From contig NC_026497.1 in NCBI RefSeq assembly GCF_000328475.2, positions 186,001-250,000 of the forward strand: a stretch of 64,000 nucleotides of DNA, written 5' to 3'. How positions within the stretch are numbered: position 1 is the first letter of the stretch; every line of letters starts with the position of its first letter. The position numbers and the translations under genes are program-made. The DNA comes from Mycosarcoma maydis. Lineage: Eukaryota; Basidiomycota; Ustilaginomycetes; Ustilaginales. This document shows positions 35,397 to 45,616 of this stretch, piece by piece. Under the pieces are notes generated by a model. That model ran no database searches and was not told the origin of the DNA. It worked only from the letters and a program-made list of their open reading frames with translations.

Positions 35397-36413
35397 TCAG
35401 TCGCAGCTGCCGTCAGCAGGCCCCTGAAGCCATCTCTCGGACAGCTTGGCTTCAGTGCAGGCGAATGTTGGCTTTCCGAGACGCTGGTTGACCTCGTTAT
35501 GAATGCCACAGAGCCACTTTCGCAGTGATGGTCCAGAGCGTACGGCGCTGGCAAGTTTCAAGTTGCTATCCTCCCATCCGCCCTCTTTGTCCTCCCGTTG
35601 GTACTCTTCTCCCAGCGCTTCAGCACAGGAGTGGCACGGGTAAATGTGAGGTAGGGCACGGAAGAGAGCAAGCATCGAGTTTTTCTGCTGAGCAGATGGA
35701 TCCTCAGGAAAGTAGGCTGCAGCAGAGTGCAAAAGGGTCCAAGCAGATCGACCAAGTTCCCCGCCGTCAGGTGGACATGCATTTGTCGATGATGAGGTGG
35801 CGGCTATTGCTGCTGCTGAGACTGCTGCTTTGGCGCGGATCGAATCTCGACTTTCGCTGCTTTGCGGAGACGCCTTGGCACCTTTCATAGCAGCAGCAAA
35901 AGCTAGCTTCGAGTTGCAAGCACGGCATGGTTTGCCGTCTGGGCCAAGCACCACTTGGGGTTGCTTACTGGAGGTACGTACGTTATCGGCGCTAAACCCG
36001 TTGCTCTTCTCACTTGCAGCGTCTCGATCCGAGAGATTCTCGGTCTGAATCGACTTGTACATTGTTGGCGCCACACCCCATTCTGCAACACCGTCGGGAC
36101 GCTCGATCCTCTTTGGCTCCCAGTCGTCCAACTCATCCTGCTTTGATTGCAGCTTGAAGTATTCTTCACGAATATCGATCCTTTTCCGATCCTTCTTCAT
36201 GCGCAGCTCCTCTTCTTTGGATATGGTTTGCACCTTGGTCGCATTGTAGTCGTATCGTGTCTGTGTAAGGTTGGCCAGTCCGAAACTAGCTCCAACGATG
36301 GTCGCCAGGAAGGGGAGTCCAAAGAAGAGCAGTGGCCTGCGTCGTACTTGAGGCGCCAACCTCGCCAGCCACGAATTTGACTTTCGTAGCGGCTTCGACT
36401 CGAATGTTGGCAT
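35397..36413 (-). CDS. COX16-ERV1 fusion: cytochrome oxidase assembly factor joined to FAD sulfhydryl oxidase
   Basis: 338 residues, one exon. Residues 1-115 match COX16: PQVRRRPLLFFGLPFLATIV, a transmembrane helix at about 27-47, FGLANLTQTRYDY, EEYFKLQSKQDELDDWE. A linker of about 40 residues follows. Residues 156-338 match Erv1/ALR: shuttle pair C163-R-A-C166, NACPPDGGELGRSAWTLLHS, active-site YPC260HSC263, FAD-binding HNEVNQRLGKP (305-315), structural pair C302/C319 with 17-residue spacing as in yeast, and C-terminal DGSCD. All functional cysteines are present. COX16 is an inner-membrane assembly factor for cytochrome oxidase whose C-terminal part faces the intermembrane space; Erv1 is the intermembrane-space oxidase that reoxidises Mia40. 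The topology is therefore compatible. Two donor-like sites (GTACGT at 35981, GTAAGC at 35968) lie in the linker, but no acceptor nearby looks usable. It is head to head with the PLA2-ACPS gene. Confidence 0.9.
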   Translation of the reverse strand: MPTFESKPLRKSNSWLARLAPQVRRRPLLFFGLPFLATIVGASFGLANLTQTRYDYNATKVQTISKEEELRMKKDRKRIDIREEYFKLQSKQDELDDWEPKRIERPDGVAEWGVAPTMYKSIQTENLSDRDAASEKSNGFSADNVRTSSKQPQVVLGPDGKPCRACNSKLAFAAAMKGAKASPQSSESRDSIRAKAAVSAAAIAATSSSTNACPPDGGELGRSAWTLLHSAAAYFPEDPSAQQKNSMLALFRALPHIYPCHSCAEALGEEYQREDKEGGWEDSNLKLASAVRSGPSLRKWLCGIHNEVNQRLGKPTFACTEAKLSERWLQGPADGSCD

Positions 36414-36938
36414 CCTTAGGCCAGCTCCAGCAGTTCAAGTCTGTGCGTGGGATCGTTGCAAGCGTGTGATAATACGAAGCAGCAGAAGAAGGGCTGAATG
36501 CCACAGAGTCAGTGCACCTCAGACCCTTTTGCTGCGGACCATTCACGATTACTCGCCGTCTTCCGAAAAGAAGAACCAAAAAAAACAACCGTGAATATTA
36601 CAAAACAAAGGTAAGTTAAGTCAAAGTTACGAAGAAGTGAAATTATGGAGCCTCTTGCTTAGGTTGGGATAACTGACTGTGACTATAATTGTTATTCGTG
36701 ATTACCACCGGTTCGTGATTTGATATTCACGATTATTAATCCAGAGCGGAGCGTGGAGGTGAGAAGCCGCCGACATCCTGCCAAGGCTGCATGAACGTGG
36801 GCCACGTTGAGCCAGGCTTGCTTCGTTACGCCCTTTTGTCCTTCTTACGACTTGTACAAGCAGTCGCTCGTCCTCCTCACCATCATCAGGTCCGCCAACA
36901 GCTGGCAAAGGTAAAGGCATGCACATACAAATGCGGCG
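36414..36938. promoter_or_regulatory. Divergent promoter between the two composite genes
   Basis: 525 bp between start codons of COX16-ERV1 and PLA2-ACPS, with an A-rich patch near 36566-36612 and dispersed motif copies near 36694-36737. A shared control region would co-regulate both genes. Confidence 0.45.
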
Positions 36939-39914
36939 ATGCCCATCTTGACGTCCTTACGCCAGAGACCGACTTATCTCTACGTCAAGGTATACTGCCT
37001 CTGTGCGCTCGTCACTCTTTTTCAAGCAGCTCCCGTATCTTCTCGCATTCCACAACTCGGACAGACCCTCCAACTCAGCAAGTACAGCCTCATACGGACA
37101 CGTTTGGGTCCACGTATTGTACCTGTCGAAGAAGCCACTCCTCTGCTGAGCCACCACGCCTCGACGTCTTCGCAAGCTGACCACCCTCAATCACCAAACG
37201 AGGTCATTATCTCGAGCGATGTACTTGGCCAAGGCGAACAAGGGTCCGTGATCAAAAAGCTTCTGAGACGATGGTCGGGTAGAGCAAGGGATCTCGCCCA
37301 TGTCAAACGCCTGCTCGCTGCTGATGCCAAGGATACTAAGGCCTATCCCGAGCTTCACTGGGATGCAAATGTCCGTAGGTCCTCAGCGCTGCATCCTGAG
37401 GAGGTCAATTTTTTGCGCAAAAGACAGCAACGCTTGTCATCGCAAGGTCAAGACCATCTGAAACGCTTCCTCAACCTTCCAGCAGCAGAGAAAGTGGACC
37501 CCCGCGATGTGCCACTGGTTGCACTCGGCGGTTCGGGTGGCGGCTACCGAGCCATGTACGGCTTTGCAGGCTTGATCGCCGCAGCCAAACGTTCCAAGCT
37601 GTGGGACTGCATTTCCTGGGCTGGAGGAGTGAGCGGAAGCTGTTGGACGCTGGCCGCCTATTACAGCATCGCATATCAAGATGCAGACCGTCTCGTCAGG
37701 CACTATCTAGCTGTTGCAACCGAGCTTGCGCATCCCATGAGCGTCCATGCGCTAGATACAGTGGCAAGAAGCAGCCGTGGTGTCTACTTCCTACTGGGTC
37801 CCCTTGTACGCAAAGCGCAAGCTGGTATAGTGGGACTTGGCATCATGGATCTCTATGCCACACTGACCACCTCGTACCAATTCTTGTCAAGAGAACCGAG
37901 AGCGAGACTGAGCAGAGCCAGCTTTCAGTTCTCCAAAGTCTGGTCTCGATCGGGGATCAGCTCTGGACACGAGCCTCTGCCCATCTTCACGGCTGTCCGT
38001 GTAGCACCTCACGATGCACCAGGTGTCCGACCGCATTCCGACTCATCGCTCAGCAAGGGTCAGCCCCCAAAACGCGCCCTCACACAGCATCAGTCGGCAG
38101 CGTCGACTGCGCTAGCGCCCGACCGCGCCTCGTACGTTTCAGATCCACCGTCGAATGCTCAATTATCGTCTGCCGTTGATAACAGAACAGATGTGTTTGC
38201 CCTCCCTGCTGCTAAAGGGTACTTTCAGTGGTTCGAGGCGACTCCGCTCGAAGTTGGAAGTGCCGATGTACAAGGCTATATCCCAACGTGGGCGTGGGGT
38301 CGTCCGTTCGTTTCTGGCCGCTCGCTGGACCGTAGACCAGAAGGATCTCTTTCTCTTCTGTTGGGTCAGTGCACAAGCGCTCCTGCAGGCCCACTGACTG
38401 GCTACATCACAGCTCTGCTGGCGTCCCTGCCAAAGGGCACCGCCATGTCACGCACCCTGCACTTTTTCAACAACTTTGTCCGGATGAAGCGATGGGAGCG
38501 CAGATGGGGAAATCCACTTCGTGCAGGTGACGAGCCCAATCCATTTTACGGCCTCAATGTCTCTCCTGTGTCCAGAATCAGTGGTAACAGCGTAGCGACC
38601 ACCAGCATCCTAGGCATCGGCATCGATATTTTGCATGTACCGCGCCTACGGCAGCTCGCACAGCGTCGCAAGTGCTTATCAAATGACGTCTCGGCTGGTG
38701 CGAACGAGTGCTCCAAAGGTCATCGGATAGGCGAGCTGGCAGCATTGAATAAGCTAGCCAAACGTATCCTTTGCGAATCGGAGTGGGAGGAGTATCACGA
38801 TCTCGCACAATCTCAGTCCGAGACCTCTGCCACGTACACGCACCTCGAGCAGTTCATCGCAAATCGATGGAGTGCAAAAGAAGCTGCTTACAAGGCATTG
38901 TACCCGAAATGGGTCGTCTCTTGGAAAGAGCTTTGCGTGCATAAGCCTGGTGCTTCAGATGGAAGCGTCAACGTTGGTCCGCTTGAGCAAAAAGGCTTTC
39001 GCACCAGGAAGCCCTCGCTGTCTTTTTCGGAAGAGTGGCGATCAAAGCATCCAGATATCTCGTCGATACCCAAGCTCCACCTTAGCCTTTCGCACGATGG
39101 CGAGTATGTAGTGGCCAACGTGCTAGTTGAAGACACGACCACTTTTTTGAACAATGCAAAGACAAGGAATGCTGAGGCATTTGACGAACTTAGCGTCTCG
39201 CTTCCGTCTTACGACGCAAACCTGGGCACGTTGGAGGATGGTACCGAGTTAGAGCTGGGTAGCAATCCTTTATCGCTTCCAGCCGTCACACAGGCGCAGA
39301 GTACAGACAAGGTGGAAGACGACACCAAACGCAGCACTCCATGGGAATCACAAGGACGCATCCGACTCATGGATGCGGGCATGTCCAACAACCTTCCAAA
39401 CCACATTCTGGCACGCAAAGAACGCTCCGCCGACATCATCATCGCCTTTGATGCCTCTTCCGACGTACAAGCAGGCTCAGCAATGCAACGCATTCACAAT
39501 TTCGCCGACGACTGCCAAATCACGCTATCGGACCAAACGCATCTCTTTGACCCGATCCAACCTGTTTGCACAGACCAGGAGAACAAGGTGGATCGATCGA
39601 TCGAATTGAAATTTCTCGACCAGTACGCACGAGTTCTACAAGGCGTACGGGATGAGGACGGATCGACGTTCTGGCTGATCTACTGCCCTTTGCTGCCCAA
39701 TCCTACAAATCCAGGGTATGATCCGAGCACTTCATCGTTCAGCAACTCGTACAACCTCGTTTGGACGCCTTCGCAGGTCAGGACATTGTTGGCGACTTCA
39801 GAGGCGAATCTGGAACTGTATGCTCTGCAAATGGTCAGACAGGTGATGCGCAAAATGTACTATGATAAGAAGGCTGCACGTCTTGCCTCCGCCTGCTTTC
39901 CGAACAATGTTTGA
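36939..39914 (+). CDS. cPLA2-type phospholipase with a nested holo-ACP synthase domain
   Basis: 991 residues, one exon. The first 60 residues have several Arg/Lys and no acidic residue, with a hydrophobic stretch (about 13-31), suggesting mitochondrial targeting or an N-terminal anchor. A cPLA2-family catalytic domain begins near 185: VALGGSGGGYRAMYGF (oxyanion Arg) and AGGVSGSCW with nucleophile Ser232. The matching catalytic Asp812 is in RIRLMDAGMSNNLP, followed by a C-terminal lipase part (ADIIIAFDASSDVQ). Between NPFYGL (about 536) and Asp812 lies a full AcpS-type phosphopantetheinyl transferase (about 554-732): GIGIDILHVPRL with metal-binding Asp563, ANRWSAKEAAYKALYP with Glu648, and LHLSLSHDGEYVVANVLVE. 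AcpS transfers phosphopantetheine from CoA to acyl carrier protein. The frame is continuous and both halves keep their key residues. Whether both activities operate in one chain is inference. Confidence 0.88.
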   Translation: MPILTSLRQRPTYLYVKVYCLCALVTLFQAAPVSSRIPQLGQTLQLSKYSLIRTRLGPRIVPVEEATPLLSHHASTSSQADHPQSPNEVIISSDVLGQGEQGSVIKKLLRRWSGRARDLAHVKRLLAADAKDTKAYPELHWDANVRRSSALHPEEVNFLRKRQQRLSSQGQDHLKRFLNLPAAEKVDPRDVPLVALGGSGGGYRAMYGFAGLIAAAKRSKLWDCISWAGGVSGSCWTLAAYYSIAYQDADRLVRHYLAVATELAHPMSVHALDTVARSSRGVYFLLGPLVRKAQAGIVGLGIMDLYATLTTSYQFLSREPRARLSRASFQFSKVWSRSGISSGHEPLPIFTAVRVAPHDAPGVRPHSDSSLSKGQPPKRALTQHQSAASTALAPDRASYVSDPPSNAQLSSAVDNRTDVFALPAAKGYFQWFEATPLEVGSADVQGYIPTWAWGRPFVSGRSLDRRPEGSLSLLLGQCTSAPAGPLTGYITALLASLPKGTAMSRTLHFFNNFVRMKRWERRWGNPLRAGDEPNPFYGLNVSPVSRISGNSVATTSILGIGIDILHVPRLRQLAQRRKCLSNDVSAGANECSKGHRIGELAALNKLAKRILCESEWEEYHDLAQSQSETSATYTHLEQFIANRWSAKEAAYKALYPKWVVSWKELCVHKPGASDGSVNVGPLEQKGFRTRKPSLSFSEEWRSKHPDISSIPKLHLSLSHDGEYVVANVLVEDTTTFLNNAKTRNAEAFDELSVSLPSYDANLGTLEDGTELELGSNPLSLPAVTQAQSTDKVEDDTKRSTPWESQGRIRLMDAGMSNNLPNHILARKERSADIIIAFDASSDVQAGSAMQRIHNFADDCQITLSDQTHLFDPIQPVCTDQENKVDRSIELKFLDQYARVLQGVRDEDGSTFWLIYCPLLPNPTNPGYDPSTSSFSNSYNLVWTPSQVRTLLATSEANLELYALQMVRQVMRKMYYDKKAARLASACFPNNV

Positions 39915-41953: not shown

Positions 41954-44900
41954 TCAAAAGTTGAGGATCTGCTTCGGATCCATAGGCAGCTCCGCCATCT
42001 TACACCCAAGATGGCACTCGAGTGTCCTAAGCATCTCGACATCGCCTCTAGGCCCACCTGAGGCGGTGACGACATTCACACACACGCTAGGCCTTGCCAT
42101 ACCCCCAGCGGCAGCGCAACTGATCTTGTCCTTGTACTCCTCGACAGAGCGAGGCATGTCGTAGAACACAACGAGCGGAATCTGATGCACTTCTTTGGGG
42201 TTGACGGCTAGCTCGCACACCACAAGCGCCTTGCATGGACGACTGTTTGTGTTGTTGCCGCCGTACCCTCCCGGCGTGGCAAATGTAGCGCTGCTGGCGA
42301 CATTGTAGTTGGTCCCAAACTGTGAAGTGGGCGACCGGAATCTTGCCAGCGTCTGTTGACGCGTGTACGAGTTCATGTCGCGGTTCAGACCCAGCGCTTC
42401 AATGCCTTTGGATGAGAGCTTGTAGATGAGCGCTTCTTGCGTTGCAATGTTGGCGCAGTAGATGACTGTCTGGCCAAAGTCAATGTCTTCGAGCAGATCC
42501 GAGATCAGGTCGAGCTTCATCTCCCCGGCAGGATTGTGAGAAAGACCCGGGATCGGGCTTGCTGTACCCATGCCGCCGTTCGAGGTCACAGCTACATAGA
42601 GATAGTACTGTCGCAGACCCTTCAACGCGGACATCATGGGATCCTTGGCTGTGCTGATGCTCGAGTTGACTGGATGCGCACCAAGAGCATTGGTGGGCTG
42701 CGAAACGTCGCGCTGAGAGCTCATGGTCTGCATGGCTGAGCCTAGGCCATGAGGTCCTCCCTTGGTGAATGAGCCGCCTGGACCCGACTGCATAGTAGTG
42801 CCGCCACCAGCCGTGCCTGCACCATCACGACGAACAAGCACGCGCACCGATTCGCGAAGATGAATCGACTGTGCAAAGTTTAGCACATCCTGGGGCACGG
42901 TGTTCGAAAAGAGTGCGACCTGTCGATCGATTGTGGCTGCTGCGCTTGTAGAGCTTCCCAGGTTCTCGTTCGGCTTTTCGAACGGCGCAAAGATTGTGTT
43001 GCCGCTACCTTGAGGCAACCCTGGGCTGAGGCCTCCAGCATCTCTGGCCGTATTTGCACTCACAGTTGGCAAAGGCAGTACTCGAAGCATTGTGCTAACG
43101 TGATCAGCTAGGTTTCGAGCAATGAGCTGATCTACCTCGTCCAAAACCACGATTCGTGCCTCGTTTGGCTTGATTGTAGCGCTTCCTGGCCCTTTGCCGT
43201 GGACATGCAGAGAGGAAGCGTTGTTGGTCATGTAAGTGAACAGCTCGCTCATTTTCTGCGGGGTGCCAACTACAACGTGTGGCCATGCCTGAACGAGCGA
43301 TTGGGCCTCGTGGTGAACGTCAGTGCAGCTGGCCGCGACCATGTGCACACGGATGCCAAGAGGGGCGCCAAGACCCAAAGCCATGCGCTGCGCCTGGGTT
43401 GCCTGATCAACGGTGGTCGACACGATCAGTGCAATCGGACCACGGTTGGACGCAGTCTGTCCGGGGCCGCCAGTTTCGTTGAGGACGTTGAGAACCAGTT
43501 GCAACGAAGGAATGACATACGATGCGATCCTTTCCTGTGTGGGCGGAGCTTGGGCGATGATATCGCTTCCCCGCAGAAGGAAGGGCAAGGCGCGTTGCTG
43601 GATCTTGTTTGGCGGTCCGAGGCCATACTTGAGAATGGAGCGCAGCAAGTCAGGATGCAGATTGAGATGCTCCCACTTGGACACAACCGCGTTGGGTTGG
43701 ATCATACCAGTGCCAGCCTGAGCTGCGTTGGTTGTGCCAGGTGCGGCCTCGTCGAGGTTTGGACCTGCTCCAGTTGTACTGCCGGCTTGACTAGGACCTT
43801 GGCCGCGGGCGTTACCGCTCTGGCCGGATGAGTTCCAACGTCGATCCGCGCCGTGGTCTTGTCCCCGAACGTTGGGTCCGCTCCAGCCTCGATTGTTACC
43901 TGAGGGACGTGGACTGAGCGTGTTCAAGGACGCAAACGACCCATTGGGGCCTGTATTGAATGATCCGTTGGGATTGCTGCCAACACGAGGCGAAGCAGCG
44001 CGCTCGAGAGCGCCTGGACCTCCCAATTGGGGCGTTCCTAGCATTCCGCCCGTCGATCCAAGGCCCAAACCTGTAAGCGAAGGTGTCGAAGGGGGTACAG
44101 CGCTGCCTAGACCGTTACTCTGTAGTGTCAGCAGGTGAGAGACGCTGTTGGCCAGAGCACTAACTTGGGCGTTGAGCGAGCGCATTTCCTCGGTTGTGTA
44201 GCCTCCCGCTGCCGCTGCGCCCTGCGTGAGGTTTGCTCCGCTGTTGGAGAGACTTGATGGAGGGAGTGCTTTGGTACGCTCGAGCAGGAGCGAAACATTT
44301 CGAGAAATGCCCGAGATCTGGCGTGAGAAGTCCTTCATGCCACTCTCTACTCGCGTCAGACGTTCGAGCATGTCTTTGATTACGGCTGACTCGACTGTGG
44401 CCTCTTCAAAAGGGCCTGTAGGCTTGTCCAAGATGTAGCCTGCAGAAACGGAGCGAAGAGGCGGCTGGTTCGGAAAGCCCGAGCCGCTAAGCGGGCTTCC
44501 GACGGGCGAATGGGCGATGGAAGGACCACCGTTTCCGATCGTCGCTGCTGTAGGCGAGAGTAAGCCACCGGACAGATTCATATAGGATGGAACCGCCAAT
44601 GTTGGAGTCATACGACCAGCTGCTGCTGTTGCTGCTGCTAATGCTATGTCCGAACGGCCGCTCCGTCCCAACGAGCCTGAATTCAAGCTAGGAGAGATAT
44701 GATAACTTGTGTGCCCCAGCTGGTTGTCAAATGCCGACTTGAGAGACGGGTCCACGGGCCCGTGGTTGAATTGAGCCGAGGATGGGCGTTTTGACGCGAG
44801 GTCGAGACCTCCAAAGGCAGCATCAGTGTCGATACTGTGCGAAGCCAAAGGGGAAACGGAAACATGGTTGCCTTGGCTGCTGACTGGTCTTGCCGAGGCA

Positions 44901-45616
44901 GAGGCGGAAACGTCGCGGCTAGAAGGATGCACCCAAGAGCTTGGCCGAGGTCTGCCAAAATTGGAGCTTGATACATCGTGGCTGAGCGTAGAGGGAGACC
45001 GGCCAAAGGACAGAGCTGCCACCTGATCGTCCTGGTCGAAAGTGTGCTGCGCATCGAGGAAGAGTCTCGGAGTGCCAAACTCTGATTCGCCACTGGTATT
45101 GTTTCGATCGTGCGAACCGGCCCCGTTTTCATGGAGAGACGGCGATCGGACAGGTACTGAGAGGCCAACCTGCGCATGCATAGATCCTGGCAAAGGCGAA
45201 CGCGAGTTGGCTGAACGGAAGCTTTGCGTCGAAGCGGCGAAACTGTTGGATCGGCTGACCTCCGCTTGCTTCTGGCCATGACTGCTGGAGACAGCGCTGG
45301 TCCGAGTGCCGCCTATAACCCCAGCCCGAGGTACCGCATTAGTCATAGCAGAGTCAACAGATCTAACGGAATCATCCACGGCTATATTTGCACTGCTCCT
45401 GGCAGAGATGGCAGAGTTGGAGCGAGCAGGTGCGCCAGGCTTGTTGGGCAACGGATGAGTTCCGACACGCGAGGATTCGCCGCGTTCCAATGCGGTGTTT
45501 AGCGGCGTGCCTGCACCAAGGCCGCTCTGTTGATCCGCACCGGATGCGCCGATCCCGTTCTGAGAGGCATTGTTAGACCAGATGCTGTTTCCAGGCAGGA
45601 AAGGTGAGACCGACAT
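41954..45616 (-). CDS. Degenerate DEAD-box-like protein (pseudo-helicase) with long Ser/Gly-rich N-terminus
   Basis: 1220 residues, one exon. About 640 residues of Ser/Gly/Asn/Pro-rich sequence, containing a poly-Ala run and a predicted coiled coil near 410-450 (LERLTRVESGMKDFSRQISG), precede a two-RecA-domain core. The Q-motif region is recognisable (YGLGPPNKIQQRALPFLLRG) and so is the fold order. The ATPase motifs are altered: motif I, normally AxxGxGKT, reads AQAPPTQER; motif Ia reads STTVDQATQA; motif II reads LDEVDQLI, not DEAD; motif III reads FSNT; and the motif VI region reads YKDKISCAAAGGMARP instead of HRIGRxGR. Binding of eIF4A-like partners or RNA without ATP hydrolysis is plausible. 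The nearest relatives by pattern are eIF4A/FAL1/DDX-type helicases. Confidence 0.8.
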   Translation of the reverse strand: MSVSPFLPGNSIWSNNASQNGIGASGADQQSGLGAGTPLNTALERGESSRVGTHPLPNKPGAPARSNSAISARSSANIAVDDSVRSVDSAMTNAVPRAGVIGGTRTSAVSSSHGQKQAEVSRSNSFAASTQSFRSANSRSPLPGSMHAQVGLSVPVRSPSLHENGAGSHDRNNTSGESEFGTPRLFLDAQHTFDQDDQVAALSFGRSPSTLSHDVSSSNFGRPRPSSWVHPSSRDVSASASARPVSSQGNHVSVSPLASHSIDTDAAFGGLDLASKRPSSAQFNHGPVDPSLKSAFDNQLGHTSYHISPSLNSGSLGRSGRSDIALAAATAAAGRMTPTLAVPSYMNLSGGLLSPTAATIGNGGPSIAHSPVGSPLSGSGFPNQPPLRSVSAGYILDKPTGPFEEATVESAVIKDMLERLTRVESGMKDFSRQISGISRNVSLLLERTKALPPSSLSNSGANLTQGAAAAGGYTTEEMRSLNAQVSALANSVSHLLTLQSNGLGSAVPPSTPSLTGLGLGSTGGMLGTPQLGGPGALERAASPRVGSNPNGSFNTGPNGSFASLNTLSPRPSGNNRGWSGPNVRGQDHGADRRWNSSGQSGNARGQGPSQAGSTTGAGPNLDEAAPGTTNAAQAGTGMIQPNAVVSKWEHLNLHPDLLRSILKYGLGPPNKIQQRALPFLLRGSDIIAQAPPTQERIASYVIPSLQLVLNVLNETGGPGQTASNRGPIALIVSTTVDQATQAQRMALGLGAPLGIRVHMVAASCTDVHHEAQSLVQAWPHVVVGTPQKMSELFTYMTNNASSLHVHGKGPGSATIKPNEARIVVLDEVDQLIARNLADHVSTMLRVLPLPTVSANTARDAGGLSPGLPQGSGNTIFAPFEKPNENLGSSTSAAATIDRQVALFSNTVPQDVLNFAQSIHLRESVRVLVRRDGAGTAGGGTTMQSGPGGSFTKGGPHGLGSAMQTMSSQRDVSQPTNALGAHPVNSSISTAKDPMMSALKGLRQYYLYVAVTSNGGMGTASPIPGLSHNPAGEMKLDLISDLLEDIDFGQTVIYCANIATQEALIYKLSSKGIEALGLNRDMNSYTRQQTLARFRSPTSQFGTNYNVASSATFATPGGYGGNNTNSRPCKALVVCELAVNPKEVHQIPLVVFYDMPRSVEEYKDKISCAAAGGMARPSVCVNVVTASGGPRGDVEMLRTLECHLGCKMAELPMDPKQILNF

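Follow-up and report, generated by a model that had tools for sequence, protein, structure and literature searches.

A holo-ACP synthase-type domain nested between the catalytic residues of a cPLA2-like lipase is a candidate mitochondrial Ppt2 of smut fungi

Analysis of a 64,000-nucleotide window of the Mycosarcoma maydis genome (contig NC_026497.1, positions 186,001 to 250,000, forward strand) revealed a gene encoding a cPLA2-like lipase in which an AcpS (holo-ACP synthase)-type domain is positioned between the two catalytic residues. A Ppt2-type AcpS gene was probably inserted into this lipase in an ancestor of the smuts and the separate Ppt2 gene lost, so that the nested domain would be the only AcpS-type mitochondrial holo-ACP synthase of these fungi. 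A literature search of open-licence papers found no paper on such an AcpS-in-lipase fusion.

The plus-strand frame from 36915 to 39914 is open throughout, and an ATG at 36939 begins a protein of 991 amino acids (36939 to 39914). At the trinucleotide composition of the window, the chance of 998 stop-free codons is about 2e-13. The domain search proposed in the first-pass annotation of this DNA detected PLA2_B (4.6e-16; 58.8 bits, cut-off 23) and ACPS (1.1e-9; 38.8 bits, cut-off 25; residues 559 to 678), both above the Pfam cut-offs, and these two families alone were found in the 991-aa protein at E values up to 1. That annotation had also claimed that the lipase residues Ser232 and Asp812 flank an AcpS-type domain in one frame, and the frame, the Pfam matches, and the residue positions confirmed this. 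Ser232 lies in GVSGS and Asp812 in MDAG, and AcpS residues Asp563, Glu648, Lys652, and His719 lie between them. The serine-aspartate spacing, given earlier as 580 residues versus about 320 in human cPLA2-alpha, was found to be 580 versus 321 (Ser228 and Asp549 of 1cjy, identified by alignment). Codon usage within the AcpS part preferred the same frame (0.01 versus -0.30 and -0.23), a score that is weak in absolute terms. An artefact of the assembly or gene model is ruled out because both Pfam domains recur in the same layout in at least 19 smut-type proteins of several named species. A chance match is ruled out by the Pfam scores, the insert profile search described below, and the structural matches.

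Two neighboring genes were recorded in the window. A minus-strand frame of 340 aa (35397 to 36419) fuses COX16 (residues 31 to 110) with Erv1/Alr (residues 224 to 330), both of which are mitochondrial families. It stands head to head with the lipase gene, and the two start codons are about 520 bases apart. A DEAD-box helicase-like protein is encoded at 41957 to 45616 on the minus strand, and its helicase match begins at residue 670 of 1220.

The lipase is divided into two parts. Part 1 (residues 142 to 540; 37362 to 38558) contains the glycine-rich loop (residues 197 to 202), Arg204, and the nucleophile Ser232 (37632 to 37634), and part 2 (residues 801 to 980; 39339 to 39878) contains the catalytic Asp812 (39372 to 39374). 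Pfam and the alignment with 1cjy recovered the PLA2_B domain, the GxSGS serine, the aspartate, the oxyanion glycines, and the arginine, and the predicted model shows the cPLA2 catalytic fold. No C2 domain was found in the 991-aa protein by Pfam at E values up to 1, and the protein is not classed as a calcium-dependent Group IVA cPLA2. The insert maps to roughly residues 442 to 533 of 1cjy, just before the catalytic aspartate, within a weak stretch of the alignment. In human cPLA2-alpha, the long loop before the catalytic aspartate carries a regulatory phosphorylation site. The N-terminal 50 residues (36939 to 37088) are conserved and basic, the first 63 residues include no acidic residue (the first is at position 64), and the most hydrophobic stretch spans about residues 16 to 34. 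This N-terminus is compatible with mitochondrial import and may represent a mitochondrial signal or an anchor.

The nested AcpS domain (residues 553 to 735; 38595 to 39143) contains the complete catalytic set by alignment, namely, Asp563 (38625 to 38627), Glu648 (38880 to 38882), Lys652 (38892 to 38894), and His719 (39093 to 39095), whose roles we take to be those of the bacterial AcpS residues. The domain is followed by a poorly conserved linker of low model confidence (residues 736 to 800; 39144 to 39338). Structures were predicted as single chains, and in the model both the lipase and the AcpS folds close, which answers a structural check proposed earlier. The AcpS domain was predicted with a pLDDT of 87.2 and has the single-unit AcpS fold; all 50 PDB matches listed for it are AcpS chains. 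Structural matches to neither cPLA2 nor AcpS, patatin-like lipases among them (VIA rows), were taken as shared folds and no more. Against the NCBIfam acpS equivalog TIGR00516, from a library of bacteria and archaea, the domain alone scored 47.6 bits and missed the cut-off of 59.8 bits. On the broader TIGR00556 (cut-off, 45.35), the domain alone scored above the threshold (52.4), and the whole protein fell just short of it (44.6). Within the top 120 of 685 matches to the AcpS part, all of the closest separate relatives that carry organism names are fungi by name.

The genome (19.66 Mb, 27 contigs) was searched exon by exon, and PF01648 matched three places: the C-terminus of the fatty acid synthase (FAS), an Sfp-type domain, and the nested lipase domain. 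When a separate fungal Ppt2 (P0132) served as the query of a six-frame search at E values up to 10, the nested gene alone was found. One candidate was scored, and the known FAS and Sfp-type domains were not recovered, so this search speaks only about near relatives. The search for another AcpS/Ppt2 gene that had been suggested thus gave no second AcpS-type match within the limits of an exon-by-exon search, which could miss a divergent or finely split Ppt2 gene. Contig C1 contains a mitochondrial-type ACP exon (DSLD motif; PP-binding, 5.4e-7). Upstream of this exon is a frame that opens with basic, presequence-like residues; taken by itself, this upstream stretch matches no Pfam family, and the exon and the frame were left unjoined. 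In PMC4659657, Ppt2/PptB is described as acting on mitochondrial ACP, Candida albicans Ppt2 as transferring phosphopantetheine to Acp1 in vitro and being essential, and Aspergillus fumigatus pptB as reported to be essential. The three PF01648 matches, the ACP exon, and this role of Ppt2/PptB elsewhere make Ppt2, the mitochondrial holo-ACP synthase, the most likely identity of the nested domain.

All three PF01648 matches belong to larger proteins (FAS, IDO-Sfp, and the lipase fusion). The Sfp-type gene (L019, 2142 to 5495, minus strand, contig C10) is one frame of 1118 aa that joins indoleamine 2,3-dioxygenase (IDO; residues 183 to 721) to an Sfp-type phosphopantetheinyl transferase (residues 861 to 1057). 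Three short smut-like entries (P0122, P0123, and P0127), which are included in none of the 21-row smut counts given below, were considered as separate smut Ppt2 proteins and rejected. P0122 contains lipase sequence, whereas in P0123 and P0127 the similarity to the nested proteins covers only part of the AcpS domain, the remainder having no BLAST match, and both look like fragments or broken or duplicated copies. P0130 (332 aa), a partial thioesterase-like hydrolase followed by AcpS, was rejected as a second hydrolase-AcpS fusion; its hydrolase match stops part-way through the profile, and a read-through gene model is therefore likely.

For the lipase and for the AcpS part, about 8000 candidates each were scored; 132 lipase relatives and 685 AcpS-part matches were found, and the best 120 of each were analysed. 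The nearest named proteins among the matches listed are from Pseudozyma, Sporisorium, and Ustilago. Both Pfam domains are present in 21 of the best 120 lipase relatives (of 132), and at least 19 of these (P0002 to P0020) are smut-type proteins of 978 to 1023 aa from several named species. A profile built from 21 smut-type inserts found 33 carriers among 121 sequences (the window protein plus the best 120 of 132 relatives): 22 are smut-type, among them the near-identical P0002, and 11 are not. For the 88 sequences left, E values exceeded 1 or there was no match. When the AcpS part alone was compared with long proteins, 21 of 624 candidates matched, all of them smut-type rows already among the lipase relatives; the ascomycete inserts were detected only by BLAST and by the insert profile.

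All 19 smut rows counted retain the Asp, Glu, Lys, and His of AcpS, and so, as read off the alignment, do P0024 and P0117 (21/21). Over the 19 rows, mean identity is 59% for the AcpS part (56% and 64% in its first two blocks and 75% in the last block), 73 to 94% for the lipase blocks, 66% for the linker at residues 351 to 426, and 31% for the linker after the AcpS domain. The AcpS part is thus less conserved than the lipase blocks and the first of these linkers and more conserved than the second. The retained catalytic residues therefore speak more strongly for constraint than the overall identity does. P0117 was left out of the residue and identity counts and of all lipase trees, and P0002 (near-identical) and P0024 (partial, 669 aa) were left out of the trees.

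The comparison with orthologues recommended by the first-pass annotation traced the insert in three states, intact in smuts and degenerate or absent in other fungi. In the 11 non-smut carriers among the 121 sequences, the insert is homologous and occupies the same site (E values of 4e-15 to 4e-29), and the eight carriers with organism names are all ascomycetes (Stachybotrys, Paramyrothecium, Thelonectria, Dactylonectria, Ilyonectria, and Mariannaea). Their inserts have lost the AcpS Asp and Glu in 11/11 cases and retain Lys in 7/11 and His in 3/11, whereas the lipase Ser, Asp, Arg, and glycine are retained in 11/11. The ascomycete lipase residues outlast the decay or loss of AcpS, which suggests that an active AcpS domain is dispensable for the lipase. 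Linker length was measured in sequences with both flanking motifs; in 29 of 121 a flanking motif was not found, and these were left out. The motif-to-motif distance is 16 to 113 residues in 56 insert-free ascomycete-type sequences and 101 to 215 residues in the insert-free sequences of Tilletia (two) and Malassezia (one). This variation in loop length, with the insert present or absent, supports the earlier proposal that a domain was inserted into a loop. A concealed AcpS in the linkers of Malassezia and Tilletia is ruled out, as no match was obtained in the three sequences even at an E value of 100. The Malassezia cPLA2-like protein P0119 ends in a ribosomal S10 domain (residues 1119 to 1215), which is either a fusion or a joined gene model.

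Lipase trees were built without the insert and rooted on Malassezia plus Tilletia. The ascomycete proteins fall inside the smuts, and P. flocculosa (P0020) branches first. In the 49-row tree with both outgroups, the branch that unites 18 smut rows with the ascomycetes and leaves P0020 outside received support of 100/99. In the trees with single outgroups, built from 11 smut rows plus 8 insert-bearing and 10 insert-free ones, the corresponding branch received 99/98 and 98/98. This placement suggests transfer of the fusion to ascomycetes followed by decay of the AcpS domain. Descent without transfer, in which a common ancestor of smuts and ascomycetes already had the insert and Malassezia and Tilletia lost it, is somewhat unlikely. 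Unity of the smuts was rejected with both outgroups (p 0.003), and P0028, an insert-free ascomycete-type lipase, is 62 to 64% identical to four smut rows versus 44% to Malassezia and 47% to Tilletia. On the other side, the AU test of smut unity was borderline with Malassezia alone (p 0.042) and gave no rejection with Tilletia alone (p 0.079), and the outgroup branches are long. Because of these long branches, we call the transfer from smuts to ascomycetes likely rather than shown. On the 49-row tree, which includes 17 of the 56 insert-free rows and has weak forks, the distribution of the insert takes 5 changes by parsimony or, with losses only, 7 ascomycete losses.

The presence of separate Ppt2-like proteins in Tilletia makes it likely that a separate gene came first, that insertion followed, and that the separate copy was then lost. 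In the poorly resolved AcpS tree (13 smut, 8 ascomycete-type, 3 Tilletia, and 24 other rows), a single origin of the nested copies was not rejected (p 0.349), and P0117 was placed among the separate proteins. This tree does not contradict the proposed order and resolves little.

Under the relocated-Ppt2 model, a Ppt2-type gene would have entered the gene of a fungal cPLA2-like lipase in a smut ancestor, in frame and at the loop that connects NPFYG to the catalytic-Asp strand; loss of the separate gene would have followed. The product would be a lipase in which two flexible linkers tether a self-contained AcpS domain, both activities presumably being kept. The lipase N-terminus would carry the AcpS domain to mitochondria, where, as the sole AcpS-type holo-ACP synthase of the fungus, it would move phosphopantetheine from CoA onto mitochondrial ACP. 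Several points weigh against this model: the missed TIGR00516 cut-off, the possible escape of a divergent or finely split Ppt2 from the genome searches, and the lower identity of the AcpS part in smuts than of the lipase blocks and the lipase linker. AcpS enzymes are trimers with shared active sites, so three fusion proteins would be required to assemble. In addition, an Aspergillus oryzae cPLA2-like protein is tabulated as an intermembrane-space protein (Takaya 2009, by way of a table row and reference in PMC4931635), the wrong side for a matrix ACP, which is a real topology problem.

Coupling of the two enzymes is not needed for the relocated-Ppt2 model. It is quite unlikely that phospholipid binding or hydrolysis gates ACP activation, or that an AcpS trimer assembles three lipases, such that membrane acyl turnover is tied to fatty acid and lipoate synthesis in mitochondria, a sharper form of the link proposed in the first-pass annotation. 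The insert does lie in the segment matching the human cPLA2-alpha loop, albeit by a weak alignment, and the architecture is retained in 21/21 smut-type inserts aligned; but the same conservation is also expected if the fusion simply became the only copy. The lipase residues kept beside degenerate AcpS domains, the 88 sequences that lack the insert, and the poorly conserved, low-confidence linker after AcpS also argue against coupling. A combined scenario is decidedly improbable: the smuts' only mitochondrial holo-ACP synthase would sit in a phospholipase, its trimer assembling lipases and phospholipid state gating ACP, and would later have crossed to ascomycetes, where AcpS died and was excised several times.

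An unused or structural AcpS domain, with the IDO-Sfp enzyme of contig C10 activating mitochondrial ACP in the way that a single human Sfp-type enzyme serves both compartments, is very unlikely. The genome does have an Sfp-type gene, and PMC4659657 describes the broad human enzyme; however, retention of the catalytic residues in all 21 smut inserts, versus loss of Asp and Glu in all 11 relatives, speaks against such a takeover. That AcpS is made on its own from an internal start or transcript, as a shorter protein, and that the fusion is not the working form is highly improbable: in-frame methionines occur at 503 and 516, the P0122 model begins at the equivalent of Met503, and P0024 is without about the first 330 residues, but at least 19 smut entries have the full-length layout, a product from either methionine would include lipase residues and has no obvious presequence, and P0122 is probably cut, because the longest contig of its source has 1981 bases.

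An enzyme of an organelle, essential in the fungi tested (PMC4659657) and separate in the other fungi seen, appears to have come to lie within a loop of an enzyme unrelated to it. One protein occurs in intact, degenerate, and insert-free states, and these offer a natural experiment on the origin, retention, and loss of nested domains. Annotators gain a candidate gene for Ppt2 in smuts, and whether phospholipid turnover is coupled to the activation of mitochondrial ACP becomes a directly testable question.

The smut protein was compared with the closest known systems. With fungal cPLA2-like lipases (PLA2_B, Aspergillus PlaA type), it shares the Ser/Asp dyad and the glycine-rich loop but differs in having a whole enzyme between the two catalytic residues; its lipase part has, in the predicted model, the same fold as human cPLA2 alpha and delta. 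The insert-bearing relatives (Stachybotrys, Ilyonectria, Dactylonectria, and others) have the same lipase and site but a degenerate AcpS without Asp and Glu. Fungal Ppt2/PptB and the nested domain have the AcpS fold and catalytic residues in common; the separate relatives are mostly about 116 to 251 aa, whereas the nested domain sits inside another enzyme and has extra loops. The earlier statement that fungal AcpS (Ppt2-like) is normally a separate protein holds elsewhere, as in Tilletia, whose Ppt2-like proteins are separate and have a basic, presequence-like N-terminus. The transferase domain of fungal FAS, which serves the synthase's own ACP, is terminal, in contrast to the nested position in the smut lipase.
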